In this document: piece after piece, positions 1,113 to 42,201 of the stretch
How the letters are laid out: every line of letters starts with the position of its first letter
Position numbering within the stretch: the stretch's first letter is position 1
Assembly: GCF_000955905.1 (NCBI RefSeq)
Contig: NZ_CP011097.1
Span: forward strand, 1,514,582-1,578,581
Direction: 5' to 3'
DNA length: 64,000 bases
Origin: Candidatus Nitrosotenuis cloacae
GTDB taxonomy: Archaea > Thermoproteota > Nitrososphaeria > Nitrososphaerales > Nitrosopumilaceae
The notes under the pieces: generated by a model
Told to the model about the DNA's origin: nothing
The model's database searches: none
What the model saw: the letters and a program-made list of their open reading frames with translations, nothing else
Position numbers and translations under genes: made by a program

Positions 1113-1131
1113 TTGGGATTTACTGTCCCAA
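1113..1131 (-). terminator. Hairpin around the atpK stop codon
   Basis: A 6-bp perfect inverted repeat (TTGGGA / TCCCAA) has the TAA stop of the ATPase subunit K gene in its 7-nt loop. It sits at the end of the ATP synthase operon in the 26-bp gap to the convergent pyrI. A transcript-end or mRNA 3' stabiliser role is inferred from position only. Confidence 0.4.
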
Positions 1132-1437: not shown

Positions 1438-1465
1438 ATTTGCTCCCTGACCTCCTTTATTTAAA

Positions 1466-1612: not shown

Positions 1613-1613
1613 T

Positions 1614-2246: not shown

Positions 2247-2251
2247 TTTAG

Positions 2252-6082: not shown

Positions 6083-8182
6083 TTGGTAGTAGCTGATCTA
6101 AAACTTGGAAGCATTATTTTGCCTAGATCAGAGTCGCCGCAAGCAGTATCGCGTCTTGCGGAATTTGAGTGGTTTCACAAACTAGAGACAGATAGCGATC
6201 TGGTTACGCCGGAAATCGATGATCTGCTTTTACGCGCCCAAAAATCATACCAAACAATTGACGATGTTGTAAAGGGATTACAAATTCCATTGCAAGTCGG
6301 CATCATGGAGGTTCTCTTCAAGGGAACTGTCATAAAAAAGAAGCAGTACGAACTAGATGAAGTTCACACCATGGTTGACGACTTGGAGAAAAACGGGCCT
6401 GCAATTGTGGATGCTCCAGCTAAACTATTAGAAGAGATGGCGACAACTCAGCGCTCAATTGATGAATATTCCACACTAAAAGAAACACTGGACATTGTCA
6501 AAAAGCTAAACGTCGATGTCGGTGGATTTGGATTTATGAAATATTTCTACACAAATCTTTTTGTTATCAATACAAGCGAGTTTGCCGAAGTGAGCCGTAC
6601 CCTAGAAGGAGTAACGGTTTACAAGTATGAACTAGACACAAAGGACAAGCTAGCATTAATTGTTGTAGCAGGAACAGACGATTCTGATAAGGTCCTCAAG
6701 GTATTTCGCGGCTTTAATTCAAATCCATTTGTCATCCCACAAGGGCTGCCACAAGTTCCATCACAAGCATATTTACTAATTGAATCAAAGCTGGCAGAGC
6801 TGACAAAGAAGGAAAAAGAACTCTCAAAGCAAATTGCCAAGACAAAGCTGGCAATTCGCAGAGACATCTTATCACTACACGAGAGTGCATTTGTAGCAAA
6901 AGAAGTATTGGAATCATTACGCAAGCCAGGCGGAACAAAGAGATTTGCAGTCATACAGGGATACATTCCAAAAAATATGGAAGGAAAATTCAAAGAAGTA
7001 ACAAAACAGTGGATGTCAGTTACTGAAGACATTAGAGACCCAAAGATGGTCCAAAACAGACCCACACTGTTCCAGAACAAGCGATGGGTTAGAACATTTG
7101 AGGTAATCACGCAAAGCCAGGGCATCCCAAGAAAGGGCGAAGCAGACCCAACTCCGATGATTTCGCTAATGTGGCCAATATTCTATGGAATAATGTTCGC
7201 AGACTTGGGTCACGGACTGCTTCTCATGGGCCTAGGTTTGTTATTCAAGATGAAAGGACAGGGAGTCATGGCAAGATGGGGAATGCTCATTGCCATCTCT
7301 GGCGCATCGGCTGCAGTTGCAGGAGTTGGTGCAGGTGAGATGTTTGGGTTCCACATTGATCACATGTCACCATTTGAAGGATTGTTAGAGGAAGGCGGAG
7401 CATTACACTCGGTGTCATGGCTAGTTGGAATTCTTTCCGTAGCAGAGCTGACATTTGATCAAGTCATCAACATACTCAAGGTTTCATTGTTCTTAGGAAT
7501 CATTCACTTGATTTGGGCATTTGTGCTTCGAATAAGACGACTCCACAAGGAAGGCCACAAACAAATGATGATAACAGAAGCGATTCCAAATCTCACACTA
7601 TACGGCGGAATTGTAGTAATCATGATGTGCGCAATTGGCGCAAGCTACGATGTCATGAACATGTATTCCAGAGAACACACCGAAGTTGTTCCATGGGTCA
7701 CAGTATTTTTGGGTGACTGGGCGCGAGTATGGATTGTTACAAGAATTGCAGTAATCATTGTACTTGGTTCAATGGCAACAATGATGGTTGGCGGAATCTT
7801 GCATGCGAAGCACCACCCAGAAGACGGTGGAAGTGCAGCAAATGTTGTGATGGAAGTATTCTTGGGCAAGACAGTGGAATGTCTGGCTCACACTATCAGC
7901 TATGCACGACTTGGGATCATGTTGCTTGTACACGCAGCCTTACTAATGACAGTAAACAATGCATTTGCTTCAATGGGCGGATGGTCATCACCAGGAGGTA
8001 TCGCAATGATAGTTGGCGGAAACTTGGGAATTATGATGATTGAAGGACTAATTGTATACATCCAGTCTTTGAGATTGCACCTATACGAATTCTTTACGAA
8101 ATGGTATGACGGTGGCTCGCAGCCATTCAAGCAAGTTGTACCAGAATTATTGTACAACCAATTTATCTGGAAAAGAAAATAA
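6083..8182 (+). CDS. atpI: A-type ATP synthase subunit I/a (membrane stator)
   Basis: The 699-residue product is the stator subunit forming proton half-channels. Residues 1 to about 350 are hydrophilic and partly coiled-coil (cytoplasmic arm); the remainder holds about seven or eight membrane helices, beginning PMISLMWPIFYGIMFADLGHGLLL. The conserved arginine helix region is likely FLGKTVECLAHTISYARLGIMLL. The TTG start at 6083 is chosen because a TATA-like box lies 29 nt upstream and no closer ATG keeps the N-terminal strand. It is divergent from the rest of the operon and ends directly against the convergent sulfurtransferase gene. Confidence 0.95.
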   Translation: MVVADLKLGSIILPRSESPQAVSRLAEFEWFHKLETDSDLVTPEIDDLLLRAQKSYQTIDDVVKGLQIPLQVGIMEVLFKGTVIKKKQYELDEVHTMVDDLEKNGPAIVDAPAKLLEEMATTQRSIDEYSTLKETLDIVKKLNVDVGGFGFMKYFYTNLFVINTSEFAEVSRTLEGVTVYKYELDTKDKLALIVVAGTDDSDKVLKVFRGFNSNPFVIPQGLPQVPSQAYLLIESKLAELTKKEKELSKQIAKTKLAIRRDILSLHESAFVAKEVLESLRKPGGTKRFAVIQGYIPKNMEGKFKEVTKQWMSVTEDIRDPKMVQNRPTLFQNKRWVRTFEVITQSQGIPRKGEADPTPMISLMWPIFYGIMFADLGHGLLLMGLGLLFKMKGQGVMARWGMLIAISGASAAVAGVGAGEMFGFHIDHMSPFEGLLEEGGALHSVSWLVGILSVAELTFDQVINILKVSLFLGIIHLIWAFVLRIRRLHKEGHKQMMITEAIPNLTLYGGIVVIMMCAIGASYDVMNMYSREHTEVVPWVTVFLGDWARVWIVTRIAVIIVLGSMATMMVGGILHAKHHPEDGGSAANVVMEVFLGKTVECLAHTISYARLGIMLLVHAALLMTVNNAFASMGGWSSPGGIAMIVGGNLGIMMIEGLIVYIQSLRLHLYEFFTKWYDGGSQPFKQVVPELLYNQFIWKRK

Positions 8183-8956
8183 TCACTCTACAGGCAATTC
8201 AGTTCTGTTTGACCACTCGCCCCAAGACCCAAGATACACTTTGACGTTCTCAAAGCCGAGTTTTTTGAGGGCCAAAAACGAGTTTGCTGCGCGATATGCT
8301 CCTTGACAATATGTGATGATTTGAGAGTTTTTTGGAATTTGATATAATTTTGATAGCTGTGCATCATCCTTGATGGTACCATCTTCTGATATGTTGAGAG
8401 TATAATCCACATTGATTGCACCTGGAATGTGGCCACGCCTTGCGCCGCGGATCACATCGCCTATAAATTCCTCCTTTGATCTTGCATCAATTAGGATTGA
8501 TTTGCCCAAGTTTTGCTTTACATAATCATAGTCTGCAATGATTTGCGGATTTGGTTTACCATCAAAGTTTTTTGGCTCAAAGCCGTTTGTTTTTGTTTCA
8601 AGCAAGTGTCCATCTGATTGCCATTTTTTAATTCCGCCATCAAGCATCCAAACATTTTGGTGAGAAAAATACATCAGCATCCAGACTCCGCGTGCCGCAA
8701 GCATTCCAGAAACATCATCATAAAAGACGACTTTGTTTTGTAAGGTCACACCTACAAAAGACAGAATCTTTTTTGTCTGCTCATTGAATGTTATGATTCC
8801 TTGAGGAGTGGTATCAAACCAATGATATGCAAACAAGTCCAGATTTATTGCGCCTGGAATGTGTCCTTGTGAGTATTCCTTGAATGATCGTGCATCAAGT
8901 ATGATCAGATTTTGGTTTTTGATTTCTTTTGCCAGATCTGCAACAGATATGAGCAT
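8183..8956 (-). CDS. sseA: Tandem rhodanese sulfurtransferase
   Basis: Two rhodanese domains in 257 residues match thiosulfate / 3-mercaptopyruvate sulfurtransferases. The N-terminal inactive domain holds the LDARSFKEYSQGHIPGAINLD signature; the C-terminal domain has LIDARSKEEFIGD, GHIPGAINV and the active-site loop ITYCQGAYRA with the persulfide cysteine. The loop CQGAYRA is closer to thiosulfate-type than to the CG(S/T)GVT mercaptopyruvate loop. An ATG at 8956 is preferred to the TTG just before it. It shares no gap with the convergent atpI. Physiological sulfur donor cannot be told. Confidence 0.9.
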   Translation of the reverse strand: MLISVADLAKEIKNQNLIILDARSFKEYSQGHIPGAINLDLFAYHWFDTTPQGIITFNEQTKKILSFVGVTLQNKVVFYDDVSGMLAARGVWMLMYFSHQNVWMLDGGIKKWQSDGHLLETKTNGFEPKNFDGKPNPQIIADYDYVKQNLGKSILIDARSKEEFIGDVIRGARRGHIPGAINVDYTLNISEDGTIKDDAQLSKLYQIPKNSQIITYCQGAYRAANSFLALKKLGFENVKVYLGSWGEWSNRTELPVE

Positions 8957-9021
8957 CAATTCGACTAAGGCCTAATATCCATTAAATCTATTTTGAAAAC
9001 AAAAGGAAAAGAGAGGGTTTT

Positions 9022-9036
9022 CGAGTTTTTTACTCG
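9022..9036 (-). terminator. Hairpin around the amt stop codon
   Basis: A 5-bp inverted repeat (CGAGT / ACTCG) with a 5-nt T loop on the plus strand brackets the TAA stop of amt (9030-9032). Its form closely parallels the one at 17770-17783. Terminator or 3'-end stabiliser role is inferred. Confidence 0.3.
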
Positions 9037-10601
9037 TTGACGTATGCTCTTTCACCGTGCTGGGCTAAGTCCAATCCGATTTCTTCCTCTTTTGGAGTTA
9101 CTCGGATTCCGCCTGGCCATACTGCATCCATCACTTTGAGGATGACAATAGTTACACCAAACGCATAACCTGCCGATATTAGAGCGCCCATTATGTTGAT
9201 AGCTTGTTGCTCATAGCCTTCTGGTGTTCCAGTCCATGCGCCAATTCCGAAACCTGTATCCCAAATGTGTGGGCTTGCCAGTGTTCCTGTTAAAACTGCG
9301 CCTGTGAAACCACCCATTCCGTGTACTCCCCAAACGTCGAGTGCATCGTCCCATTTGCGAGAGTTCTTGAATGAAACAGCACCATAACAAACAGTTCCTG
9401 CTGCAATACCAATGATCAATGCTGCCATTGGTCCAACGAAACCAGATGCTGGTGTGATAGTGACTAGTCCTGCAACTGCACCTGATGCTGCACCAACAAC
9501 ACTTGGCTTACCCGTGTGGGCCCAAGCCATTAACATCCAAGTTAGTGCTGCCATGCCTGTTGCGGTGTTTGTTACAACCCATGCTGATGTTGCAACTCCG
9601 TCTGCTGCTAGTTCAGAACCTGCGTTGAATCCAAACCAACCAAACCAGAGCATTCCTGTTCCAAGAACAACCATTGGAATGTTGTGTGGTTCCATTGGAA
9701 CCTTGCCATATCCAAGTCGTCTTCCAAGAACTAGGGCTCCAGCCAAAGCTGAGAATCCAGAGGTAATGTGAACTACAGTACCGCCTGCAAAGTCAAGTGC
9801 GGCCGCCGGCGCCAGATCAGGATTGAGGTCTAACTTACCTGCGAATATGAAACCTCCGCCCCAGACCCAGTGTGCTACTGGATCATAGACAAAGGTTGCC
9901 CACAGTAAGATAAAGACAACAAATGCGCTGAACTTGATTCTGTCAATGATACCACCTATGATTAGTGCTGGTGTAATGATTGCGAAAGTTGCTTGGAACA
10001 TTGCAAATAGTTGATGCGGAATTGTTCCAGGCCAAATTGCGCTACATTTTACATCCGTGCTTACAACATATGGCGACCTCAGAGTATAGTAAACTTGGTC
10101 AGTACACGCTGCTGGTGAACCCAGAGGTGCAACATGAGATACTTTGTTGAATCCAGCATAATCTAATGAACCCATGAACAAGTTTGCATCACTGTTCACT
10201 GGACCAAATGCTAGAGAGTATCCCCATAATACCCATTGTACTGAGATTAGACCCATTACAATTAGGGTCATTCCTAGTACGTTTACCATGTTCTTTGATC
10301 TTGCCAATCCGCCGTAGAAAAATGCAACACCCGGGGTCATGAATAGGACCAAGGTTGTTGCAGTTAGTATCCAAGCGGTGTCACCGTTGTCGATCATGCA
10401 TGGTGCAAAAGCGCCAGAACCTGGTGCTGTTTCATACCAGCATTCTGCTGGATTACCAGTATCAATTCCTGTACCTCTTGCTTGATAACCATCCATGCCG
10501 TCGGTGACTTGTTGCGCATAAGCTGTTGACAGTACGCCTGTCGAAGTTGCGGCAACTGCTATCACAAGTAATAGAGCATACTTGTGATTCCTGTTCTTCA
10601 T
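9030..10601 (-). CDS. amt: Ammonium transporter (Amt/Rh family)
   Basis: The 523-residue product imports ammonium or ammonia, the energy substrate of this kind of organism. A signal peptide (about 1-29, ending TAYA) precedes an extracellular N-terminus with two cysteines (Cys54, Cys68), then about eleven membrane helices. The twin-histidine pore pair is His278 (TVVHITSGFS) and His427 (WGVHGMGGF), spaced 149 residues as in the family. A loop at about 150-192 adds two more cysteines (AACTDQ, VKCSAIW), a larger extracellular side than bacterial AmtB. A TATA-like TTAAATAA lies about 28 nt before the ATG. No PII gene is adjacent. Confidence 0.97.
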   Translation of the reverse strand: MKNRNHKYALLLVIAVAATSTGVLSTAYAQQVTDGMDGYQARGTGIDTGNPAECWYETAPGSGAFAPCMIDNGDTAWILTATTLVLFMTPGVAFFYGGLARSKNMVNVLGMTLIVMGLISVQWVLWGYSLAFGPVNSDANLFMGSLDYAGFNKVSHVAPLGSPAACTDQVYYTLRSPYVVSTDVKCSAIWPGTIPHQLFAMFQATFAIITPALIIGGIIDRIKFSAFVVFILLWATFVYDPVAHWVWGGGFIFAGKLDLNPDLAPAAALDFAGGTVVHITSGFSALAGALVLGRRLGYGKVPMEPHNIPMVVLGTGMLWFGWFGFNAGSELAADGVATSAWVVTNTATGMAALTWMLMAWAHTGKPSVVGAASGAVAGLVTITPASGFVGPMAALIIGIAAGTVCYGAVSFKNSRKWDDALDVWGVHGMGGFTGAVLTGTLASPHIWDTGFGIGAWTGTPEGYEQQAINIMGALISAGYAFGVTIVILKVMDAVWPGGIRVTPKEEEIGLDLAQHGERAYVNE

Positions 10602-10730
10602 TGTAGGTCTGCAACGGTGAAAATTATTTAAGCGTAGAGAAGTTTTGAGTCCAAAAGATGTAAATTGTTAAATAGACTCATTTTAGGATAATATCATAAA
10701 ATTAACAAATTATGTTATGGAGTTACAGGC

Positions 10731-11384
10731 ATGGAACCAAAACTAGCGATATTTGAGACATTTAAGACAAAAAAACAGGAACTCACCGGCGAGGCAACGA
10801 GGCAACGATCAATCATCATTACTTTGGCAACCGAAAATAATCCGGCACAGAGAACACGCACGGCAATTGCACAGAGAATCGCGCAGGAGAATGGAACAGT
10901 TTGGAAGAACATCTATTCTGGAATATTTCGGGATCTGGACGAGATTCTGATCCCACTCGGGATGGTAGAGGAAGCAGGCCGCTTACCGCTTAGACGTGGC
11001 CCAAAAGCACTACAGGAAAAGGGAATTCCATTCTACCAGCTCACGCAAAGCGGACTCTTAGTTTCAATAGCACTAGATGAGATAATTGGTCGCGAGAAAA
11101 TCCTAGAGAGATTTTTTGTTGAATCCAAAATCAGCAAGGAATTCAACGATGAAATACAAATGATCGCAAAATTTGCGCCAAGGTTTGTGTATTCATTGTT
11201 TAAGAGCTACGTCAAGGCATACTGCGATGGCAAGTTTTCCGATCTCTTGCCGTTTGAGAAGGCGCGATTCATCTCGGTATCGGATGAGGCAATTCTGATC
11301 CAAAAGGAATTTTTGGAATCATTCATTGGCATGCCAAAGCAGGAAAAGGAAAAAACACTTGCATTTCTAAAAGAGATAGGCTGA
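10731..11384 (+). CDS. Conserved hypothetical, possible helix-turn-helix protein next to amt
   Basis: I do not recognise a named family in this 217-residue soluble, basic-acidic mixed protein. Its first part (RQRSIIITLATENNPAQRTRTAIAQRIAQENGTVWKNIYSGIFRDLDEILIPLGMVEEAG) reads like a winged-helix domain in which a repressor-style helix is followed by a two-strand wing, and RRGPKALQEKGIPFYQLTQSGLLVSIAL fits a wing or dimer helix. A regulatory role, perhaps for the divergent amt 129 bp away, is inference from fold-like pattern and position only. Confidence 0.7.
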   Translation: MEPKLAIFETFKTKKQELTGEATRQRSIIITLATENNPAQRTRTAIAQRIAQENGTVWKNIYSGIFRDLDEILIPLGMVEEAGRLPLRRGPKALQEKGIPFYQLTQSGLLVSIALDEIIGREKILERFFVESKISKEFNDEIQMIAKFAPRFVYSLFKSYVKAYCDGKFSDLLPFEKARFISVSDEAILIQKEFLESFIGMPKQEKEKTLAFLKEIG

Positions 11385-11448
11385 TTAGCAAATTTTTGCA
11401 AAAAACAACCCCCAAACATTAAAATCCATTATACAAGGGGGCAAAAAT

Positions 11449-12498
11449 ATGGGCTCTGGCGGATCACAAAAAGTCTTTGCATCAGTAAAATCATACTCAC
11501 AGCGAGGCAAGCTACTCACAAAGACGGAACTGCAAACCCTAGCAGAATCAAGAGACTTGGATGAGCTAATCACCAGAATAAAGAACACAAAATATGCTGA
11601 CGCCGTATCCAAGGTAAACAAGCCATTTACTGCAGGCAAAATAGAGTCTGCTCTGCGAAGCGAGCTGGCAGAGATTCATTATTCCATTTCCAAGACTGCC
11701 GGCAAGTCGGATATCTTGGATGCGTATTACCTAAAATTCCTAATATCAAATCTCAAAGTAATCCTAAAGGGAAAGGCACTGGGCAAATCCCAAGAAGAAA
11801 TAGAGCCGCACCTGAATCTGCATGCCGAGGAGCTAATCAACCAGCGAGACGTAATCATAAAGGCACTCACTGCCAAGGACCTAGAAGAGGCAATCGCAAG
11901 CCTGAGCTCAATTGAGTTTGGCGAAGAGATGGCAAAGGCAGTAACACTGTACAATGACAAGAAAAATGTCCAAGTCTTTGACGTATTGTTGGATAAGATT
12001 TTGTACCAACAGTTAGGTCGTGCAATGAGAAACTCGCGAGACCGGGAAATAATGAGACTAGTCGGAATGGACATTGACTTTTACAATATTCTCTCTATTC
12101 TTAGGGGCAAATTCTGGGGCCTAGACGAAGACCAGATCCAAAACTTGATCGTGACTCACACACCAAGCATTCCAAGAGACTTGCTTGGAAAAATGATCTC
12201 ATCTGATTCCGTCAGAAGTGTACTGGATGAGCTAGCAACAACTCGTTATCGAGATATCATACCACAAACAGAAGACAACATGGAGACAGTATCTGCATTT
12301 GAGCACTCATTTGAAATGGCAATCTACAAGGCAGTAAACAGATCATTTACGAAAATGTTCAGCTTTTCCACAATAATTGGAATTACAAAACTGACCTCAT
12401 ATGAGGTGCGAAACATTGCGGCAATTGCGTTTGCAGTAGAGCAGAAGATCGAGTCACAGACAACAATGTCCAGGCTTATTGTAGAGCAGGAAGAATAG
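11449..12498 (+). CDS. atpC: A-type ATP synthase subunit C
   Basis: The 349-residue helical protein matches subunit C (V-type d), which couples the central stalk to the proteolipid ring. Typical segments are the N-terminal YAFASVKSYSQRGKLLTKTEL-like stretch and the repeated helical units ending in FEHSFEMAIYKAVNRSF and YEVRNIAAIAFAVEQKI near the C-terminus. The start ATG is preceded by AAGGGGGCA, a purine-rich ribosome-binding site. It is separated from the other ATPase genes by about 3.3 kb and by the sulfurtransferase, amt and an unknown gene, so expression must be coordinated in trans. Confidence 0.92.
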   Translation: MGSGGSQKVFASVKSYSQRGKLLTKTELQTLAESRDLDELITRIKNTKYADAVSKVNKPFTAGKIESALRSELAEIHYSISKTAGKSDILDAYYLKFLISNLKVILKGKALGKSQEEIEPHLNLHAEELINQRDVIIKALTAKDLEEAIASLSSIEFGEEMAKAVTLYNDKKNVQVFDVLLDKILYQQLGRAMRNSRDREIMRLVGMDIDFYNILSILRGKFWGLDEDQIQNLIVTHTPSIPRDLLGKMISSDSVRSVLDELATTRYRDIIPQTEDNMETVSAFEHSFEMAIYKAVNRSFTKMFSFSTIIGITKLTSYEVRNIAAIAFAVEQKIESQTTMSRLIVEQEE

Positions 12499-12539
12499 TT
12501 TTTCAAGCTATATATGGAAAGGAGGCTAGAAAGCCAGCA

Positions 12540-12776
12540 ATGATACGACTGCACAAAAAAAAGTCAGACATCACCACCGAAACCCTCGTCAATACTGTTT
12601 GGGTTAGTACCTTTCTGGCGCTGGTTCTGACAATTCCTGCACTGTCGGTGTTTTTGGGAATTTACTTTACGACTGGGAATCTTCTAGTCGGTGCAGTGAT
12701 TGGATTTGGGCTGCACTTTGTTGCATTGGCATTTTCTGATAGAATATCAAAGAATTTGACGAGGCTGCTCAGCTAA
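12540..12776 (+). CDS. Small two-span membrane protein downstream of atpC
   Basis: The 78-residue product has a basic N-terminus (MIRLHKKKSD) and two hydrophobic spans (about 20-43 and 49-66, the latter GAVIGFGLHFVALAF). A GGAGG motif lies 14 nt before the ATG. It follows atpC by 41 bp and may be co-transcribed, so a role in ATPase assembly, analogous in size and position to bacterial AtpI-type helpers, is conceivable. I know of no family match. Confidence 0.75.
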   Translation: MIRLHKKKSDITTETLVNTVWVSTFLALVLTIPALSVFLGIYFTTGNLLVGAVIGFGLHFVALAFSDRISKNLTRLLS

Positions 12777-12788
12777 GGTGATCATACC

Positions 12789-13436
12789 ATGATGGGCGAT
12801 AAGGACTACAAGCAGACCATAAACGAAACACTGGACATACTAACAAAGGAAACAGTACCGCAAATAACAGATCCCGTAGACAGCAAGTCGGTTTTCCTAC
12901 ACGAAGTCATACGATGCATGAGAAGATCCTACTTTGATAGATTTGATGCAATAGATCCTGTCGGCAGGGACTTTGGCGGTGTTTTGGGTGGACTCATTAG
13001 AAAGCTTCCATATGGCTCCAAGCTTGGAGAATTTGCCATCGAGGAGATAAAGCTAAAGGGGCAAGCAGACATGCTAGTGGATGACATTGTCATAATATTC
13101 AAGACGATTACTGGCTCGCCTGAGAATCCAGCAGCGGCCGATATTTTGTATCTGAATGGATGCATGTGGATCTTTGGCAAAACAGAGGGAGTGATTGTTT
13201 ACTTGACTGGTGAGGGAAAAGAGACATCATTTGCACTAACTCGCGAGAAGAAAATGTTTGAGGAGGTAATCAGACGAGTTCGCGTTTATTCCAATTTGAT
13301 TGCCGACAAAAAGACTCCAATTTTAGAACCATCGTCGGAATGTACCACCTGCCAGTACTATGAGCGGTGTTACATCAAAAAGCATGATGAAAAACAAATA
13401 TCCATTACTGAATTGTTTGGTACTAAAAAGAAGTAA
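12789..13436 (+). CDS. Cas4-like / RecB-fold protein with Fe-S cysteines and degenerate nuclease motif
   Basis: The 215-residue product has the Cas4/Dna2 plan: an early cysteine (Cys43, VIRCMRRSYF) with His38, then GQADMLVDD (Asp94) and a C-terminal cysteine trio CTTCQYYERC (185, 188, 194) that with Cys43 would hold a 4Fe-4S cluster. In the (D/E)xK motif, IIFKTITG, the acidic residue two before Lys105 is isoleucine, so nuclease activity may be lost. It follows the small membrane protein gene by 12 bp; there is no CRISPR array or other cas gene in the window. Role is likely DNA repair or structural, not adaptation. Confidence 0.75.
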   Translation: MMGDKDYKQTINETLDILTKETVPQITDPVDSKSVFLHEVIRCMRRSYFDRFDAIDPVGRDFGGVLGGLIRKLPYGSKLGEFAIEEIKLKGQADMLVDDIVIIFKTITGSPENPAAADILYLNGCMWIFGKTEGVIVYLTGEGKETSFALTREKKMFEEVIRRVRVYSNLIADKKTPILEPSSECTTCQYYERCYIKKHDEKQISITELFGTKKK

Positions 13437-13445
13437 AAAAGATCT

Positions 13446-13460
13446 CTAGAATTATTCTAG
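13446..13460 (-). terminator. 15-nt palindrome centred on a stop codon
   Basis: CTAGAATAATTCTAG on the minus strand is a perfect inverted repeat (6-bp stem) whose 3-nt centre is exactly the TAA stop of the 36-aa gene. It also lies 9 bp beyond the convergent Cas4-like gene, so it could end transcripts from both sides. Confidence 0.45.
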
Positions 13461-13562
13461 TGATTCTTTGTGTCCCTTGCCGCGAAGTGCGAATAATACT
13501 ACTGCGAAGGCAATGAAGACACCGATTGCTGAGCCATATGCTGCTAGACTTGCTTCTGCCAT
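13452..13562 (-). CDS. 36-aa single-span membrane protein
   Basis: A complete ATG ORF encodes a short N-terminus (MAEASLAAYG), one hydrophobic helix (about residues 9-27) and a basic tail RGKGHKESLE. It has its own strong promoter: a palindromic TATA box CTTATATAAG centred 30 nt before the ATG, which predicts a nearly leaderless mRNA. The stop codon sits inside a perfect palindrome. These three signals together make a real, probably well-expressed micro-gene likely. Function unknown; such proteins often are small subunits of membrane complexes. Confidence 0.7.
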   Translation of the reverse strand: MAEASLAAYGSAIGVFIAFAVVLFALRGKGHKESLE

Positions 13563-13586
13563 TTGATTACGAATCTGAGCTCAAAT

Positions 13587-13596
13587 CTTATATAAG
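13587..13596 (-). promoter_or_regulatory. TATA box of the 36-aa membrane protein gene
   Basis: CTTATATAAG, a near-consensus archaeal TATA element, is centred about 30 nt before the ATG at 13562. Being palindromic it could in principle also fire the other way, but no gene starts there. Confidence 0.6.
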
Positions 13597-13644
13597 TTTG
13601 CCAAAAATTTTTTCATAAGGACAAATTATCATAATTTTATAATT

Positions 13645-14214
13645 CTATGATACTACTTGGTTCCCCTTTAGTTCAGCAAAGGTAGAGTCCAGCTCATCTA
13701 GTTCTTGGCCGAACAGGTCTGTCATCTCCTTTAGGAGCAGTTTTTGCTGTTGAGCTTCTCGGCATTCCCCTCTTAGTCTATTGATTATCTTCTCAAACTG
13801 GGGGATTCTTTCATTGAGATGAATGGTAAGATCTTGGAGGAACTCTTCGTATGATTTCAGATCTGCGGCAAGGGAGTTATCTGATCGTTGTAAATTGCCG
13901 GCATCATCGGAATCGACAAACTCGCCCAATCGTCCGCGAAGAACTCGCAGCTTTGTTTCTGTTTGGGAGAGTTTTTCCAAGTTTGTACCAACGGAAATAG
14001 AGCCAGAGTCTAGTTCCAATCTGCCAAGCTCATCGCTAAGATAGTTGGTCATCTTTTTTGCCATTTGGCCCTCCCGGTGTGCTTCTTGTTGTTGTTCTGT
14101 GACTTCGTCTTTTAGCTTTTGCAGTGTGTCCATTTCGTGGTGTAAGGTCTTTGCCAGGTTTAGTAGGAATTCCGCAGCATGGGCCAAATTATTCACGGAA
14201 TACGAGCTTAGCAT
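13645..14214 (-). CDS. Coiled-coil protein of unknown function
   Basis: The 189-residue protein is almost entirely heptad-rich helix with no membrane span. Two similar halves (KLKDEVTEQQQEAHREGQMAKKMTNYLSDELGRLE at about 35-70 and RLRGECREAQQQKLLLKEMTDLFGQELDELD at about 145-178) suggest an internal duplication of a helical hairpin, each ending in a D/E-L-x-x-L-(D/E)-S motif. A structural or chromosome-associated role would fit but nothing shows it. The ATG at 14214 is the only good start. Confidence 0.75.
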   Translation of the reverse strand: MLSSYSVNNLAHAAEFLLNLAKTLHHEMDTLQKLKDEVTEQQQEAHREGQMAKKMTNYLSDELGRLELDSGSISVGTNLEKLSQTETKLRVLRGRLGEFVDSDDAGNLQRSDNSLAADLKSYEEFLQDLTIHLNERIPQFEKIINRLRGECREAQQQKLLLKEMTDLFGQELDELDSTFAELKGNQVVS

Positions 14215-14270
14215 CAGCTAAAATCGCCAAAAATGGATACTAAAGATATGTTTGTTTGAATTAAACGATC

Positions 14271-14816
14271 CTATGGAGTGAACTCGAATGGAACGATGTT
14301 TTCGTGTCCTGCAGTCATGGAGCTGAGATTAAAGTTGGCCTCGCCTTTGATCTTCCAGTTTACTGTACCGCTGGACAGAGCTGACCAGAACTGTGGATCA
14401 TTGCCGGTGTTCTTTATGGTAACTGTCTCTCCAATGATTTGCGGATTATTACTCAGTATGGTGTAATAGTTGGATCCTTCGATTGCGCCTTCTGGTCTAT
14501 CACCGATTTGTGCAATTAATACACGGGTATCATCAGAGTATAGCTCGAATTTTATCAGCTGTAAGATAACGGACTTGAAGTTTGGGTTTGTTATTTTGAA
14601 ATCGACTTGGATTCGTGCCTCTTCTTCTGTAACTGAGAGAACTTCAAAGCCACCCAAGCCCACCTCAAGCGGCAAGACCTTGATTGGATCTGGCGATATT
14701 TTGCCCAAGCCCTCCTTAGAGACGTCATTAAAGATTTGAGAGCCGGAAATTGCTATTACTCCTATTGCGCCACCGAGGATTCCGATAATTATTCCAAGTA
14801 GGATTTTGGAATTCAA
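14271..14816 (-). CDS. Membrane-anchored LEA14-like protein
   Basis: The 181-residue product has an N-terminal membrane anchor (about 4-26, ILLGIIIGILGGAIGVIAISG) and an extracytoplasmic beta-rich domain. The stretch VDFKITNPNFKSVILQLIKFELYSDD carries the N-P-N and following hydrophobic pattern of LEA_2/WHy domains, often linked with stress tolerance. The upstream frame has no ATG before a stop, so TTG at 14816 is the likely start. Function is inferred only at the domain level. Confidence 0.65.
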   Translation of the reverse strand: MNSKILLGIIIGILGGAIGVIAISGSQIFNDVSKEGLGKISPDPIKVLPLEVGLGGFEVLSVTEEEARIQVDFKITNPNFKSVILQLIKFELYSDDTRVLIAQIGDRPEGAIEGSNYYTILSNNPQIIGETVTIKNTGNDPQFWSALSSGTVNWKIKGEANFNLSSMTAGHENIVPFEFTP

Positions 14817-14879
14817 CGAAATGAATTTTGAAAATCTGTATCATAAACGTTAGCAATTAAATCTGCATCATTGTATGAT

Positions 14880-15236
14880 ATGATAATGCAGTATTTCCAG
14901 GCAGTGCAGATAGGACGGGGGCGCTCAAGCAAGTCCCAGATGATTCTGTTTAATTTGTGTGGATTTGCAATGCTAACACTTACTACAAAAAAGAAGGACG
15001 GCCAGTTTATTCCAATTGGGGAAGAAGACCTAGTAGCAATAATTCGCACTGCAGACGGATACGTCACCATTCTGGTTGATGCGGAAGGATACACCAAGGC
15101 ACAATCAAAGCCGCTTGAAAAAGATGCAGCCTTTGAGATATTCAAAAAGGCAAGAGAATCTGGAATTACGGAATATCCTGGGGATAAGGTAGAGATCTGG
15201 ACTGAGCAATACCCTACCGTTCAAAAGGAATTATAG
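14880..15236 (+). CDS. Conserved hypothetical protein
   Basis: The C-terminal 85 residues look like a small alpha/beta domain ([33 protein letters not shown], then a helix and WTEQYP). I cannot name a family. The start is uncertain: a TATA-like AATTAAAT about 20-25 nt upstream favours ATG 14880 or 14886, whereas the conserved-looking domain could begin at ATG 14970. It converges with, and overlaps by a few bases, the UMP kinase gene. Confidence 0.6.
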
Positions 15237-35817: not shown

Positions 35818-37416
35818 CTATTGTTCATTGCAGATGGTTTGTGTCTGCTCTCGCAGAAACTGTGTAAGATAATATGCACCGCCTGCACCCTTGCCAGAGA
35901 TTCCGGAATTTTTCCACCCAACAAATGGTTGTGCCTGAACCATAGCGCCAGTGGTGGCAGATTGTGCCCTGTTTGCATATGTTACTCCTGCCTCAATTTT
36001 TGAGAAAAACTCGTCAATTTCGGACTTGTTCTGTGAGAAGATTCCCGCAGTTAGGCCATATTCAGAGTCGTTTGCCTGTACTATGGCATCATCGAATTTT
36101 TCAAATTCTTGTACGCACAAAAATGGCAAAAATAATTCCTCTTTGACTAGCTTGTGATTGTTTGGTAGATCACTTACTATGGTAGGCCTGACATAGTAGC
36201 CGTTCTGGTATAGACCATCTTTGAGAATATCACCACCAAATACTATCTTGCCGTCTTTTTTTGCCAGCTCCACTGCGGACTCGAATTTTTTCTTGGCAGA
36301 ATCATTAATGATTGGGCCCAGATACGTTTCCTTTTCCCAGGGCAATCCAATTTTGAGATTTTGCGTCTTTGAGACTAGTTTTTCTAGGAATTTTGGTGCG
36401 ATTTGTTTTTGCACATAGACTCTTGAGCATGCGCTACATTTTTGTCCGCCATACCCAAATGCTGCACGCATTACTCCATCGGTTGCCTTTTCCAAATCTG
36501 CCGATTCGGTTATGATTACGGGATTTTTGCCGCCCATCTCTGAGATGAATGGTTTTGGTGAATTTTTTGTAAATGTCCTAAATCCTGACAGTCCGACTTC
36601 TTTTGATCCAGTAAATGCTATTCCTGATACATGTGGACTTTCCACTATGGTTTGTCCCACTATTGATCCCAGTCCGGTTACAAAATTGATTGCGCCTGGT
36701 GATATTTTTTTGTAAATCATATTTACAAACCTAAATGCGGAAAGCGGAGTATCACTGGCTGGCTTTAGTACGACAGAGTTTCCGGTAATTAGTGCACCAC
36801 TACTCATGCCAATTGCTATTGCTGATGGAAAGTTGAATGGAGAAATTATCCCCCAGACTCCGTATGGTTTTAGGACAGATTGGGTTTTTTCATTTGGACT
36901 AGCTGGTCTTGTTGGTTTTACGAATCCTTGATTTGATTCCAGCTGGTCTGCGTAAAATCGCAGAAAATCAATTGTTTCATCTAATTCTCCCATTGCCTCG
37001 AGCCTGTTTTTGCCGTTTTCCATGGATGTGGTGGCTGCCAAATAGAATTTTTCTTGGGAGAACTGATTTGCTACTTCACGAAAGATTTGGGCTCTATTCT
37101 GGTATGGAGTTGCGCTCCATTGTGAAAATGAATTTTTTGCTGCTTCAATTGCTTGGAGGGTTTGCTCTTTGGTTGCCAGTGGAAACTTTGCTAGTATGAT
37201 TCGAGTGTCTGATGGCGAGTGGACTTCAAATGACTGATCTGAATGTACCTCTTTTCCGTTTATGATTAATGGATAAGATTTGCCAAATTCTGATCTTAGC
37301 TTGTCCAGCGCAGAGTCAAATTTTTTGTGAAATTCATCAGTAGAGTTGTTTTTTACTGCATTTGTCCAGGTGTTTTCGTTTTCAATCAAAGGTAAATGAT
37401 ATACTGTATCAGTCAA
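35818..37416 (-). CDS. 1-pyrroline-5-carboxylate dehydrogenase-like aldehyde dehydrogenase
   Basis: The 532-residue NAD(P)-dependent aldehyde dehydrogenase has NFPSAIAIGMSSGALITGNSVVLKPA (cofactor fold), GSKEVGLSG, catalytic Glu in FISEMGGKNPVII and nucleophile Cys in YGGQKCSACSRVYV. The long N-terminus and the GGQKCSACSR motif are those of P5C dehydrogenases (PruA type), which turn pyrroline-carboxylate into glutamate. Start TTG at 37416 is the only one that keeps the N-terminus; it is uncertain. It borders the AT-rich island. Confidence 0.9.
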   Translation of the reverse strand: MTDTVYHLPLIENENTWTNAVKNNSTDEFHKKFDSALDKLRSEFGKSYPLIINGKEVHSDQSFEVHSPSDTRIILAKFPLATKEQTLQAIEAAKNSFSQWSATPYQNRAQIFREVANQFSQEKFYLAATTSMENGKNRLEAMGELDETIDFLRFYADQLESNQGFVKPTRPASPNEKTQSVLKPYGVWGIISPFNFPSAIAIGMSSGALITGNSVVLKPASDTPLSAFRFVNMIYKKISPGAINFVTGLGSIVGQTIVESPHVSGIAFTGSKEVGLSGFRTFTKNSPKPFISEMGGKNPVIITESADLEKATDGVMRAAFGYGGQKCSACSRVYVQKQIAPKFLEKLVSKTQNLKIGLPWEKETYLGPIINDSAKKKFESAVELAKKDGKIVFGGDILKDGLYQNGYYVRPTIVSDLPNNHKLVKEELFLPFLCVQEFEKFDDAIVQANDSEYGLTAGIFSQNKSEIDEFFSKIEAGVTYANRAQSATTGAMVQAQPFVGWKNSGISGKGAGGAYYLTQFLREQTQTICNEQ

Positions 37417-37485
37417 TAAAACGATTTAGATAAAGTGATTAAAGATTTCAGAAACTTTAACAATTAAAAGAAATAAACTATCTAA

Positions 37486-39105
37486 TTGACGGAAGAACAC
37501 CCAATACATAGAGGTTTAAAAAATAAAGTTGTTGAGATTCTCGAAAATAGTGGATTTTTAGTTGATTCAGAAATTCATGTTTCGTTCTCAAGACCTACTA
37601 CTGATGATTTTTCTCTTGATGTTTGCGCTATTCATGATGATCATTTGTTATTATTCGAATGTAAAAGATCTTCCAAGGAACTTTCACGACAAATTGATCA
37701 TACTAAACAGAATGGTCCTAGATTGAATAAGATAACAAAAATACTTGAATCGGAAAAAAGAAGATTTGTTTTAAATGATTTTAAGAGAATAAAATATTTT
37801 CATTATTGTTATGCAATATACGATACAGAAAAAAAAGACATAGAAATTGACAAAAAACTTCGTTCTAAAGAGATCATATTTTGGAATAATGAGGCAATCA
37901 AATATTTCTACAATACAAGTAAGATGTTAGGTACAACAACAAAATATGAAATACTTCGTGAAATAGGTATCAGAGACAGAATAGTTTCCGAGCCTGAAGA
38001 TGCAGTACGAATAGAACAAAACGGTAATGAGTTATTTCTGTTAGGACTGCAACCGTCAAAATTATTAAAAATGGCATATGCATTTAGACGGTTATCATTA
38101 AGAAATGAATCTTATCAGCGCATTGTAAGTGGAAAGAAATTACAACAATTAGAAGAGTTTTACAAAAAGAAAAAAGATTTTTTGTTAGCAAATTCTGTTA
38201 TCATTGCATTTGAGGATGAACCAGAAATTCAGAATGAAATTGAGTGGAATAAAGCCGGAGATAGAAAATTACATTTTCCAACATCATATAGTTGTGCATG
38301 GATGATTGATGGACAACATAGAGTTTACGCCTTTAAAGATACAAAATACAATAATCCTAAGAAAATTGACAGTAAACAATTCAAAATACCAGTTGTAGCT
38401 TTTAGGAAGCTTCCACTTCCAAAACAAAGCCGTACTTTTGTGAACATAAACTATTACCAAACTAAAATTAACACAGTTTTGATTTGTGATCTTGCTGCTT
38501 CTTTTCCAGATGCATCTTATGAATTATCATGGGCAAGTCTACTTGTAAAAAAATTGAACATGGGTGATCCATGGAATGGAAAAATACAAACCAGTCAAAC
38601 TGAACCAAAAGGTTCTATCAGCATTGCTGGTTTCATTAGACCTGTTCTTTTGTATACATTATTAGGATATAGTGTGAGAGATGAAAAATATCACGGTCCA
38701 TTATTCAAAATTAAAAAATTTGAAAAGAATAAACCTATGTTGACAGGACAAAACAAAGCAGCATTTGACACTCATTTAGAAATATTGAGGAAGTTCTTTA
38801 AATCCGCAAAGAAAAACTCGTGGAATTCAAAAACTAAAAAATTGATGTGGGATGATCAAGATTATGGAATGAGTAATGCATATGGAGTAAATGCTCTTCT
38901 CCTAGTTTTATCTGCAATTTTGAAAAAAGAGAAGATATTGAGTTATGATTTTGATAAATATCTAACAATATTGAGAACTGTGAATTTTTCCAAGGCCCAT
39001 ATCAAGACATTATCAAGAGGGTATGGTGCGTATACTGATCTAGCACAAGAGATCATTGGAAAAATCAATAAGCAATTTAAGAAAAATTATACAATTTCAT
39101 ACTAA
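37486..39105 (+). CDS. PD-(D/E)XK nuclease-like + DGQHR (DndB-like) domain fusion
   Basis: The 539-residue protein has two parts. Residues 1-100 carry a restriction-endonuclease-like fold pattern: a helix with Glu17/Glu20, then Asp45 (FSLDVCAIHD) and Glu58-Cys-Lys60 (LLLFECKRSS), the D...ExK triad. Residues about 190-500 are a DGQHR domain with YQRIVSGKKLQQLEEFY and WMIDGQHRVYAF (DGQHR 275-279), the motif of DndB/DpdB-type proteins of DNA phosphorothioation and deazaguanine systems. TTG start. It is far more AT-rich than flanking genes and precedes a Dam-type methylase by 106 bp, pointing to horizontal transfer and a DNA-modification or defence role. Confidence 0.8.
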   Translation: MTEEHPIHRGLKNKVVEILENSGFLVDSEIHVSFSRPTTDDFSLDVCAIHDDHLLLFECKRSSKELSRQIDHTKQNGPRLNKITKILESEKRRFVLNDFKRIKYFHYCYAIYDTEKKDIEIDKKLRSKEIIFWNNEAIKYFYNTSKMLGTTTKYEILREIGIRDRIVSEPEDAVRIEQNGNELFLLGLQPSKLLKMAYAFRRLSLRNESYQRIVSGKKLQQLEEFYKKKKDFLLANSVIIAFEDEPEIQNEIEWNKAGDRKLHFPTSYSCAWMIDGQHRVYAFKDTKYNNPKKIDSKQFKIPVVAFRKLPLPKQSRTFVNINYYQTKINTVLICDLAASFPDASYELSWASLLVKKLNMGDPWNGKIQTSQTEPKGSISIAGFIRPVLLYTLLGYSVRDEKYHGPLFKIKKFEKNKPMLTGQNKAAFDTHLEILRKFFKSAKKNSWNSKTKKLMWDDQDYGMSNAYGVNALLLVLSAILKKEKILSYDFDKYLTILRTVNFSKAHIKTLSRGYGAYTDLAQEIIGKINKQFKKNYTISY

Positions 39106-39211
39106 TAAGTTACTATAAAATACTAATTACATTCTCAATAGTATAATAAATTAGGTCATTATTCGTTTTAACGACAGATCTAAATCATGGAGTATATTGA
39201 AAAATTGTATA

Positions 39212-40066
39212 ATGGATTATTCTAAAAAACACACAATGATGTTAACAGCATTAGATAAAAAAGAAATTCAAAGTATTAAGTCGCCTTTAAGATATCCAGG
39301 AGGTAAATCACGTGCTGCTAAATACATTTATCAGTTTATTGAAAAATTTTTTGAGGGTGAAAACGTAAAACATATTTGTTCTCCATTTTTTGGCGGTGGT
39401 TCTCTAGAAATTTTTTGTGCACAGAACGGAATTCGTGTTTTTGGTTATGATTTTTTTCGACCATTAGTTGATTTTTGGCAGTGTCTGTTTGAAAATCGTA
39501 TGAAGTTAGCTGACATGGTAGAGAAATACCGACCTTTGATAAAAGAAGAATTTTACAGATTGCAACAGTCACAGATGCAATCAAAAGACAGATATGATAG
39601 AGCTGTTTTCTTTTTTGTTCTAAATAGAACCTCTTTTTCTGGCTCAACTCTCTGCGGTGGAATGGCTTCTGGAGGAGAAGATGACAATCCAAGATTCACT
39701 GAATCGTCAATAGCTAGATTACGAGAATTCAATCTCAACAATATTTCTGTTGAGATGTCAGATTTTAAAAAGTCGATTCCTAGGCACAAAAATGCCCTAC
39801 TATACTTGGATCCACCATACCTAATCCAAAGCAAGTTGTACGGAAAAAAGGGAGATCTGCACAGAAACTTTGATCATATAGGTTTAGCAAGGATTCTCAA
39901 AAAACGAAACTCTTGGATCCTATCATATAATAATTCAAAGGAAATCCACGATCTATATTCTGGTTATACCATTTTGTATCCAGACTGGAAATATGGTATG
40001 TCGCATGACAAGTCATCAAGAGAGGTCTTGATACTCAGTCACGACATTGCTAAAAAATCGAATTAA
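39212..40066 (+). CDS. D12-class DNA adenine-N6 methyltransferase (Dam-like)
   Basis: The 284-residue enzyme has the D12-class motifs: PLRYPGGKSRAAKYI (motif X), ICSPFFGGGSLEI (SAM-binding PF-x-G-x-G form), NRTSFSG and catalytic LYLDPPYL. The target would be adenine in a palindrome such as GATC, which is not visible here. ATG 39212 (MDYSKKH) is favoured; a TTG five codons earlier and an ATG eight codons later are alternatives. It overlaps by four bases the convergent 42-aa zinc protein gene. With the DGQHR/nuclease gene upstream it forms a two-gene island. Confidence 0.9.
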   Translation: MDYSKKHTMMLTALDKKEIQSIKSPLRYPGGKSRAAKYIYQFIEKFFEGENVKHICSPFFGGGSLEIFCAQNGIRVFGYDFFRPLVDFWQCLFENRMKLADMVEKYRPLIKEEFYRLQQSQMQSKDRYDRAVFFFVLNRTSFSGSTLCGGMASGGEDDNPRFTESSIARLREFNLNNISVEMSDFKKSIPRHKNALLYLDPPYLIQSKLYGKKGDLHRNFDHIGLARILKKRNSWILSYNNSKEIHDLYSGYTILYPDWKYGMSHDKSSREVLILSHDIAKKSN

Positions 40067-40191
40067 AGAAGCTCTGCTTCTGGCGCACAATGCTTGTGAA
40101 CCCAGCTTCCTGATTCATTTTTTGCAATTTCCTTTCCTGGTGCTATTTTATCCCCACATGAGACACATGAGGTAGCGAATTTTGCTTTCAT
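40063..40191 (-). CDS. 42-aa zinc-binding protein
   Basis: From ATG 40191 the product (MKAKFATSCVSCGDKIAPGK...) has the ligand set C-x2-C...H-x2-H-C (CVSCGDKI, WVHKHC), resembling half of a LIM/PARP-like zinc finger. Longer in-frame starts would add a non-conserved leader of 8-19 residues. Function unknown; probably a nucleic-acid or protein adaptor. Confidence 0.7.
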   Translation of the reverse strand: MKAKFATSCVSCGDKIAPGKEIAKNESGSWVHKHCAPEAELL

Positions 40192-40305
40192 GGATTTTGT
40201 ATAATGCCGATGCATTATCAACAATATGATCGAAACACTACTAACCAAAAGCTAGCTTGGAATAACAACTATCCTACAATTATAACCTCTACACCTAGGG
40301 ATTAG

Positions 40306-42201
40306 TTGTTGCAATTTGATGCCCTTGGACGCAGAATGCGCTCCAGTTATCCAGAAATCGATCTAAAAAGACCGCGAGAACCTATCTCACTGACAGAGGC
40401 ACTAGAATTAGTGGGGCAATTTGCAGGCAAAACTCCAACCCCAAAGCAATACGAGATCATAAAAAAAATCCAGCACGCAATTGAATCAGGCTACAAAAAA
40501 ATCCTGTTATCAGCACCCACTGGGACTGGTAAAAGCTGGATTGCAATCGCACTGTCACTATACCTTAGATCAGCTACCATACTCACATCTACAGTACTAC
40601 TCCAAGACCAATATCGAAATGAATTCGGGTTTTTCAATACCGTTCGAGGAAAGAAGAGATTTCTTTGCGAGCAGACAAACCGGGTCTTTGATTGCACCAA
40701 CGGCTATTGCAATGATTGTACATTCAAACCCCAACCGGAATTATACCACATTCTCAAAAAAGGCACCATTGCCGAGACCATAACCAGCCAGGACATGCCC
40801 AGAAAGTGTCCATACTATGACCAAATCGAAATAGGCAAAAAAGCAAGCTTTGTTGCATATTCCTACGCATCATATTTGTCTCATCTTTTGTCCGGCGAGG
40901 AAATGCCGCAAAGAAAGCTGTTAGTGTGTGATGAGGCACACGAGTTGGACGAAGAGCTTGCAAACCAGCTTGCAACTAATTTGTCTGGATTTTATGGCGA
41001 AATGCTTGGAGTTGAGATGCCCAAGTTTTCAGTAAACTCGAATCTTTCTTCCATAAAACAATACGTCAATGCGTTTTCTGAGGCCTTCAAGAAACGCGAG
41101 TCCGTCATAAAGCAATGCGCAGAGCATTCCTTGTTTTTACAATCAGAGGAGCACATCAAAAAACATGTCCACTGCATGAAACATGGCATTAAACTACAAT
41201 CAAACTGCATGGACTGCAACAGAATACGCGAATACATCAGGACAAAGGAATTCCTAAAATGCAAAGACCATGTCGATTGCAAGTTTGATCACAAGTTCAT
41301 CAACCATTTCGTGCTAAATGATCTCAAAAACTATACCACAAAGATGAAGATTCTACAGAAAGGCTTGGAATCGGCCGATCAAAACTATATCATAACTGAT
41401 ATCCAATCCAAATCACAAGATGAGCGACGTGGCCACAACTTTGATGAGGTCACCATCAAGCCCTGGCACATTCACTGGTTTATGGAAGAGATGAGTTCCA
41501 ACTTTGATCTATCACTGTACATGTCAGCTACCATCAATTTGGAATTGTTCTGCAAGGAGACTGGATTCAAAAAAGATGAGGTCTATTTTATCAACGAAGA
41601 CTCTAACATTCCGCTAGAGAATCGCAAGATAGTATTTCTAAAAACAGAATACGTCGAGGCAACCTCCGATGTCATCTTGCCTGATAAAATAATCTCGCAA
41701 ATCGAGGCTATTTTGAAGATTCGAGCTAACCAGCGAGGAATCATACTGTTGACCAGCTATTCGCAGCTTGATTACATCCTAGAAAAGATATCACCTGAGC
41801 TAAAGCCAAGATTACTCCCACTGGAGCGCGGCCAAGACAAATCCGAAGCAATCGAATATCACAAAAACACACCAAATTCAGTTATGATCTCGCCTGGCTT
41901 GGAATCTGGTGTAAACCTGCCAGACGATGATAGTAGATTCCAGATTATTGTAAAGGCACCATACTATCCAACAGTGGACGATCTTCGAATGAAAAAGATC
42001 TATGATTCCGAATCAGACCACAGAAGATACTATCTAAAATCTGCATTCAGACTATTACAGATGGCAGGACGAAGCATCCGACATGTAAAGGATAGTGCAA
42101 TGACCTATGTTTTGGATGCAAAGGCCGAGCGCATGATTTACCACCAAAGAAACGATCTGCCAAAATGGTTCATGGATGCATGCGAAGGAATCTCGAGATA
42201 A
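40306..42201 (+). CDS. XPD/DinG-type Fe-S DNA helicase
   Basis: The up to 631-residue protein is a superfamily 2 Rad3-type helicase: Walker A APTGTGKS (70-77), four cysteines at about 121, 130 or 135, 138 and 168 (RFLCEQTN, YCNDC, RKCPYY) that fit the XPD 4Fe-4S domain, DEAH box VCDEAHELDEE (209-212) and a C-terminal motor ending MAGRSIRHVKD (motif VI Q-x-x-GR-x-x-R). It acts in nucleotide excision repair or on forked DNA. Start unclear between TTG 40306, TTG 40309 and ATG 40336; a TATA-like TTATAACC lies about 25 nt before the first. Confidence 0.9.
   Translation: MLQFDALGRRMRSSYPEIDLKRPREPISLTEALELVGQFAGKTPTPKQYEIIKKIQHAIESGYKKILLSAPTGTGKSWIAIALSLYLRSATILTSTVLLQDQYRNEFGFFNTVRGKKRFLCEQTNRVFDCTNGYCNDCTFKPQPELYHILKKGTIAETITSQDMPRKCPYYDQIEIGKKASFVAYSYASYLSHLLSGEEMPQRKLLVCDEAHELDEELANQLATNLSGFYGEMLGVEMPKFSVNSNLSSIKQYVNAFSEAFKKRESVIKQCAEHSLFLQSEEHIKKHVHCMKHGIKLQSNCMDCNRIREYIRTKEFLKCKDHVDCKFDHKFINHFVLNDLKNYTTKMKILQKGLESADQNYIITDIQSKSQDERRGHNFDEVTIKPWHIHWFMEEMSSNFDLSLYMSATINLELFCKETGFKKDEVYFINEDSNIPLENRKIVFLKTEYVEATSDVILPDKIISQIEAILKIRANQRGIILLTSYSQLDYILEKISPELKPRLLPLERGQDKSEAIEYHKNTPNSVMISPGLESGVNLPDDDSRFQIIVKAPYYPTVDDLRMKKIYDSESDHRRYYLKSAFRLLQMAGRSIRHVKDSAMTYVLDAKAERMIYHQRNDLPKWFMDACEGISR

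Follow-up and report, generated by a model that had tools for sequence, protein, structure and literature searches.

The window, by which we mean the whole stretch of 64,000 nucleotides that was analysed, comes from Candidatus Nitrosotenuis cloacae, whose SAT1 genome has 1,620,156 bases and a GC content of 41.0% (PMC4814877). It carries a two-gene cassette whose left neighbour is an aldehyde dehydrogenase gene, with its promoter side towards the cassette, and whose right neighbour is a gene for a 61-residue protein, facing it with its 3′ end. The features of the locus, with coordinates in the window, are the following.

35818..37416, minus strand: aldehyde dehydrogenase, the left flank, conserved in the genus and outside the system
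37430..40066, no strand: the whole cassette, proposed to act in defence
37486..39105, plus strand: fusion of a PD-(D/E)XK nuclease and a DGQHR (ParB/Srx-fold) domain, 539 aa, TTG start, the proposed restriction effector
37486..37980, plus strand: nuclease domain of the fusion, residues 1-165, with D45 and E58-C-K60, located by AlphaFold2 model matches and a motif alignment of 90 relatives
37978..38475, plus strand: DGQHR domain of the fusion, residues 165-330, ParB/sulfiredoxin NTP-binding fold, located by TIGR03187, PF14072 and structural matches
38476..39102, plus strand: helical C-terminal part of the fusion, residues 331-539, lacking the HEPN domain of the relatives of about 740-820 aa
39106..39196, plus strand: spacer with a TATA-like stretch, TACTATAAAATAC, read by eye
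39197..40066, plus strand: D12-class N6-adenine DNA methyltransferase (MTase) with a DPPY motif (PF02086), the proposed self-marking component
40063..40248, minus strand: 61-aa protein with a weak FCS-type zinc finger likeness, the right flank, whose 3′ end is the right cassette boundary
40306..42201, plus strand: DEAD/ResIII-type helicase, a core gene in 16/17 genomes of the genus and outside the system

The motif residues of the fusion (D45, E58, C59 and K60; D275-G-Q-H-R279) were found in the 539-residue reading frame exactly where the original prediction had located them. D45 and E58-C-K60 are conserved in most of the 90 relatives, and DGQHR is unvaried across the 70 that were aligned; YQR at 210-212, F318 and I321-N322 are further motifs of the DGQHR domain. 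The proposed membership in the DGQHR/DndB superfamily holds, as both curated cut-offs are exceeded: PF14072 of Pfam scores 35.6 bits (cut-off 29.1) and TIGR03187 of NCBIfam scores 109.4 bits (cut-off 58.85) over residues 173-478. No Pfam family matches the nuclease domain above its cut-off, the best being Card1_endonuc (E=0.03) and Hjc (E=0.08). An AlphaFold2 model built from a 70-row alignment (pLDDT 88.8, pTM 0.85) bears out the nuclease fold that had been claimed for the N-terminus. Residues 1-165 of this model match the PD-(D/E)XK nucleases AF1548 (Z 9.9, rmsd 2.5, 108 aligned residues), VC1899 (Z 9.2), Can2 (9.1), Card1 (8.5) and EndoMS (8.2). With both the core fold and the triad, the modelled region belongs to the PD-(D/E)XK superfamily, and DNA cleavage is predicted for it.

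Residues 165-539, modelled alone (pLDDT 87.0), resemble a different set of proteins. The best 24 structural matches all belong to the ParB/KorB/Noc/PadC/sulfiredoxin superfamily, with Z from 7.8 down to 4.8; these include PadC (7.8), nucleotide-bound ParB (7.7), sulfiredoxin (5.8) and the P. furiosus ParB-like nuclease (4.8), with BrxU (3.8), SspE (3.6) and DndI (3.0) ranking lower. We assign the ParB/Srx fold to the DGQHR part because this list, with its middling Z scores, is uniform and because DGQHR proteins have been assigned to that fold before (PMC4619093). ATP and GTP binding was shown for a DndB-like protein (PMC12704722), which makes nucleotide binding by the window fusion a reasonable inference. 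Foldseek alone gave no match with E < 0.001 for the whole fusion or for residues 165-539, and phmmer and profile searches of the PDB sequences gave no relative of the fusion. The likeness to Card1 and Can2 is limited to the nuclease domain, the remainder matching ParB/Srx, and Pfam and PADLOC detect no CARF family in the fusion.

The second gene is a D12-class adenine methylase, as had been proposed: PF02086 scores 99.7 bits (cut-off 22), DPPY lies at residues 205-208, and the protein matches 7m6b with E=2.9e-32. Between it and the fusion there are 91 bp if the TTG start is taken, and 106 bp, the figure given in the prediction, if the next ATG at 39212 is taken. Homologues point to this ATG, or a later one, as the true start, and the TATA-like stretch in the spacer may be a putative promoter of the gene's own. 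The description of this enzyme as Dam-type is right for the class and too narrow for the subfamily; TIGR00571, the Dam subfamily model, gives 63.1 bits, below its cut-off of 114.85, so that GATC specificity is not to be assumed. GATC is not depleted in the window (312 occurrences against 234 expected), and tetranucleotide counts gave no telling site avoidance in these 64 kb, which are too little for such counts. Elsewhere in the genome, a second D12 MTase (L160, G000:C1:387708-388457) stands with no evident endonuclease beside it and is nearer to the D12 lineage of the long DGQHR fusions than to the window MTase.

Both genes had been described as richer in A+T than their neighbours, the first most of all. 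Their GC contents of 30.5% (fusion) and 34.3% (MTase) are indeed the two lowest among the 50 window genes of at least 150 aa, for which the mean is 41.7% (sd 2.7), and support a foreign character. Similarly, no dnd, dpd or restriction gene adjoins the pair, as had been stated. The genome lacks DndC, which rules out dependence of the fusion on a Dnd system, and has only a sub-cut-off match to DndD.

Comparison with the other genomes of the genus delimits the cassette and agrees with its expected accessory distribution. The left boundary, AATAAAACGATTTAG, which ends at 37429, is common to the window and the sister genomes. Measured from there, the 61-aa gene ends after 14 bp in G003, after 31 bp in G016, after 1974 bp in G013 and after 2641 bp in the window. 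The insertion site is clean, and the fusion is present in 1/17 genomes of the genus; this, together with the empty site in others, rules out the reading of the pair as a housekeeping locus. At the same site, G013 carries a Type II restriction-modification cassette of a D12 MTase and an RE_HaeIII endonuclease (E=2e-97). Four other genomes (G001, G007, G011 and G012) have there a lone MTase orthologue, 72-74% identical and in the same orientation, whose start codon directly follows the shared left boundary. Beside the helicase, G002 has genes for an integrase-like protein, an N6_N4 MTase and a ResIII protein. With varied restriction genes, a lone MTase or nothing in sister genomes, the site between the aldehyde dehydrogenase and the helicase is, judging from these arrangements, one at which the genus exchanges restriction systems.

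The MTase tree groups the window enzyme with the lone MTases of the sister species (support 100/98) within the clade of RE_HaeIII partners; the D12 clade found beside most other fusions is a separate one. Pairs of a D12 MTase and RE_HaeIII occur in seven Nitrosopumilaceae genomes (G013, G131, G206, G149, G236, G145 and G163), the endonuclease being confirmed by Pfam for G013 and identified by sequence likeness in the others; their MTases are 54-61% identical to that of the window. The fusion thus occupies the place that a restriction enzyme has in relatives. Two histories would fit these sequences, one in which a resident MTase was joined by the fusion and one in which the fusion was lost from the sister species; partner exchange or a chance adjacency may be involved. 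The claim that the two genes form a unit therefore stands in part: the pairing recurs, as described below, but joint arrival is not necessary, the MTase being found alone in four sister species.

Single-sequence scans of the genome and viral collections gave no relatives of the fusion, but a profile scan of 84,980 genomes that started from an alignment of four rows succeeded, and 80 of its 151 confirmed loci were kept. With seven loci from genomes of the same phylum and three plasmid or phage records, these make up the 90 relatives of the motif comparison and, with the window, the 91 fusions whose neighbours were analysed. The relatives come from more than 20 phyla of bacteria and archaea, so that the picture of a one-off archaeal system gives way to a scattered and widespread family. 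Most are about 740-820 aa long. In these a short extension is followed by the nuclease-like and DGQHR domains, and the C-terminus is a domain in which the R of an R-x4-H motif is invariant and the H is found in more than 90%; Pfam calls a Swt1-like HEPN in this domain in 15/37 cases. The PADLOC model PDC-M34B was rejected for the long relatives, as its matches cover their HEPN domain only. The window fusion falls in a compact clade without HEPN (support 100), whose five members come from three phyla; its companions are from a Nitrosopumilus MAG, Ignavibacteriales and two Acidobacteriota. Two members of this clade have E-x-E in place of E-x-K. In addition, three Nitrosopumilaceae loci (L015, L016 and L017) represent a distinct lineage of nuclease-like and DGQHR proteins of about 515 aa, with no lysine and no MTase; a 97-aa gene is found near the fusions of L015 and L016.

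An MTase within 1.5 kb was scored for 57/91 fusions, a count that includes L080 as a candidate and L015, whose "MTase" is a false positive by motif only, in a membrane-type protein. MTase-like genes make up 47/116 of the genes within 300 bp (40%) and 10/134 at 300-1500 bp, counts that are slightly inflated in the near bins because the query MTases came from some of the same loci; farther out they fall to 1/142 at 1.5-3 kb and 0/334 at 3-9 kb. When the fusions are clustered at 60% identity, 28/49 clusters have an MTase (L015 counted). The largest neighbour family is the D12 MTase, found at 46 loci at a median distance of 0 and on the same strand in 44; L057 is an example of a long fusion with a D12 partner. 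PF02086 was confirmed in all 45 of the D12 genes tested (the window and 44 others); these partners mostly overlap the fusion or lie within 50 bp of it, on the same strand in 43/44. The window pair, with its spacer of 106 bp, is less tightly arranged than those that overlap. The distances among fusions and among their D12 partners correlate (Mantel r 0.75, 0/2000 permutations), a correlation that could come in part from shared vertical descent. Within the window's own clade an MTase is adjacent in 5/5 members, of the D12 class in the window and N6_N4 in L033, L034, L035 and L036. The pairing of fusion and MTase thus recurs across many phyla, as would be expected of a modification-guarded nuclease. 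At L034 the fusion and the N6_N4 MTase overlap by 4 bp, and a BglII-like gene was not seen there; homologues of this MTase adjoin BglII-like endonucleases in L035 and L038. L034 and the window are thus alike in having the fusion beside an MTase whose relatives pair with Type II endonucleases (BglII-like and RE_HaeIII, respectively).

An intact triad is associated with the presence of an MTase (40/49 against 14/33, Fisher p=3e-4), but on the tree this association comes down to 1-2 independent informative pairs. Loss of the lysine was accordingly set aside as support for a restriction-modification function. No MTase was found near three Roizmanbacteria members and several others with an intact triad. 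In 17 loci a radical-SAM protein replaces the MTase, and in 11 an HATPase_c_3 ATPase is present, with no overlap with the D12 set; most fusions of the radical-SAM set lack the nuclease lysine. Relatives of this kind without an MTase include L009 (pNL1), L010, L037, L048, L062, L067, L092 and L099, and some radical-SAM loci also carry a second DGQHR protein. This cassette was not recognised by PADLOC and is possibly a different DNA-modification cassette.

Several single loci show other arrangements. L028 (G393, 401-4752) has the fusion followed by a C5 cytosine MTase, the sole C5 partner found, and an HhH-GPD glycosylase that likely serves T:G mismatch repair for 5mC. L031 (G538, 6999-15065) combines a DGQHR protein with a similar radical-SAM-like protein, a 664-aa DndD-like SMC/ABC ATPase and a 715-aa helicase-like protein, and may be a dnd-like system with radical-SAM chemistry. 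L011 (Acinetobacter plasmid pTR3_4, 427-4303) has in a row an MTase, a NotI-family endonuclease, a stand-alone DGQHR protein and a protein of about 300 aa; L012 (Acinetobacter phage MD-2021a, 5105-7900) has the MTase, the stand-alone DGQHR protein and the protein of about 300 aa. These two cases suggest a possible accessory role of DGQHR proteins in Type II systems. Finally, in L013 (Akkermansia phage Chantilly, 1519-4625) the fusion is convergent with an MTase and lies beside a phage integrase.

From these domain folds, motifs, adjacency, recurrence and cassette boundaries, we lean, with some reserve, towards reading the cassette as a two-component, restriction-modification-like defence module, whose methylation, nucleotide gating, cleavage and protection we infer by analogy. 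The D12 MTase would methylate adenine at some sequence of the host genome as a self mark. By analogy with SspE and DndI, the DGQHR/ParB-Srx domain would bind and hydrolyse NTP and sense whether DNA is methylated; DNA without the mark would be cut or nicked by the PD-(D/E)XK domain. For the longer relatives, a suicide response would come in addition from the HEPN RNase-like domain at the C-terminus; the compact archaeal form has no such domain. Several of the findings weigh against this reading: the decayed nuclease motifs of some long members that adjoin an MTase, the E-x-E of two members of the window's clade, the MTase-less members with an intact triad, the separate lineage of the window MTase and its solitary occurrence in sister species, and the loose spacer. 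The original idea of a methylase-protected nuclease system is thus upheld for the nuclease fold, the foreign character, the insertion and the pairing; nuclease activity and methylation stay at the level of prediction, and joint arrival is not part of what was upheld. A possible, though rather unlikely, extension is that the fusion is a mark-agnostic effector, which has taken partners from the D12, N6_N4 and C5 MTases and, in a sister lineage, has a radical-SAM cassette as its companion; such an effector would replace dedicated Type II endonucleases and read whatever self mark its partner makes.

Alternatively, the fusion could be a self-contained effector, for example an NTP-gated nuclease that senses a phage feature, which at this locus lies beside a resident solitary MTase without cooperating with it. 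The lone MTases at the same place and in the same orientation in the four sister species agree with this, as do the position of the window MTase among the RE_HaeIII partners and away from the D12 clade of other fusions, the unlike GC contents of the two genes and the 106-bp spacer. However, the sister species could just as simply have lost a restriction gene and kept the MTase by itself, and all five members of the fusion's clade, in three phyla, adjoin MTases, with the wider family doing so far above background. We regard this alternative as unlikely. A mainly regulatory role of the DGQHR protein, acting on the MTase or its gene as DndB does, seems quite improbable to us. DndB is described (PMC10853773, PMC12704722) as an ATP-responsive negative regulator or repressor of dnd genes, the MTase is sometimes upstream in the same operon, and some MTase-adjacent relatives keep the DGQHR domain with decayed nuclease motifs. 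These are the long members L064, L084, L086, L091, L104 and L105, where the decay makes the nuclease domain unlikely as the cutting agent and suggests, from sequence, that HEPN or another activity is the effector. Against regulation, the window fusion has an intact nuclease fold and triad, and the HEPN of the long relatives, with the R and H noted above, is an effector part. Very improbable is a Type IV-like nuclease directed against a foreign mark, with the MTase unrelated or acting at other sites: the ParB/Srx and nuclease plan is that of GmrSD, BrxU and SspE (PMC4619093) and there are the weak structural matches to BrxU, SspE and DndI, but if the active-looking MTases made the recognised mark, their stable pairing with the nuclease would amount to self-destruction.

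The proposed restriction-modification-like module is most readily compared with SspE and DndI, which are phosphorothioate-sensing DUF262-HNH effectors (PMC11662687, PMC9646914). In these the mark is detected by a ParB/Srx-type domain, with the nuclease under the control of NTP hydrolysis, and DndI is harmful in the absence of modification (PMC11662687). Like them, the window fusion joins a ParB/Srx-superfamily NTPase domain to a nuclease and has a DNA-modification partner; unlike them, it has DGQHR/PF14072 instead of DUF262, a PD-(D/E)XK nuclease at the opposite end of the protein from their HNH nickase, and a one-gene base MTase instead of a multi-gene phosphorothioate mark. GmrSD and BrxU similarly combine a nuclease with an NTP-binding ParB/Srx domain related to DGQHR, but they cut modified DNA, have no cognate MTase and use an HNH (DUF1524) nuclease (PMC4619093). 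Pfam finds PF14072 in the window fusion and neither DUF262, with its DGQQR motif, nor DUF1524. DndB and DpdB share the DGQHR domain (TIGR03187, PF14072) and are accessory proteins of phosphorothioate and 7-deazaguanine systems, respectively; the fusion scores far below the cut-offs of their specific models (65.4 bits against 450 for the DndB equivalog TIGR04172, 58 against 300 for the DpdB model NF041060).

The window shares with Type II systems adjoining genes for an MTase and a nuclease, an adjacency that recurs in its relatives, and the D12 and RE_HaeIII systems of Nitrosopumilaceae have a homologous MTase and, in G013, the same site. The RE_HaeIII endonuclease is, however, a single domain without a nucleotide-binding domain, and the NTP-binding fold of the fusion argues against a simple Type II enzyme. 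The PADLOC model PD-Lambda-5_B matches the window MTase (E=3.5e-33), PD-Lambda-5 being a compacted prophage RM+Abi system (PMC9519451), and no PADLOC model for PD-Lambda-5 matches the fusion. A ParB-HEPN fusion, Saro_3948, is listed in a table of a HEPN survey (PMC3710099) and is probably of the same long type as L009 of pNL1 (nuclease-like, DGQHR and Swt1-like HEPN), which is located in a radical-SAM cassette without an MTase; the passages of the survey consulted mention no N-terminal nuclease-like domain or D12 partner for it.

The passages searched in surveys of Dnd and BREX (PMC10853773, PMC12839542), in a ParB-fold survey (PMC12704722) and in a restriction-modification review (PMC12707154) contain no description of the pair of fusion and MTase, and as a system the pair is absent from the PADLOC models searched. 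It looks like an undescribed, switch-gated form of restriction-modification, provisionally so, as subscription journals, REBASE and preprints lay outside the search.

To our knowledge, few defence systems of ammonia-oxidising archaea have been studied, and the locus documents a site of defence exchange in this group. If the proposed reading is true, the principle of a ParB/Srx domain joined to a nuclease, known from phosphorothioate sensing by SspE and DndI, would extend to base methylation of the ordinary kind, through a system of two genes that occurs in over a dozen phyla of bacteria and archaea. The function of DGQHR proteins would then become testable in a minimal setting, and the mark-agnostic reading, if true, would make the family a re-targetable form of restriction.
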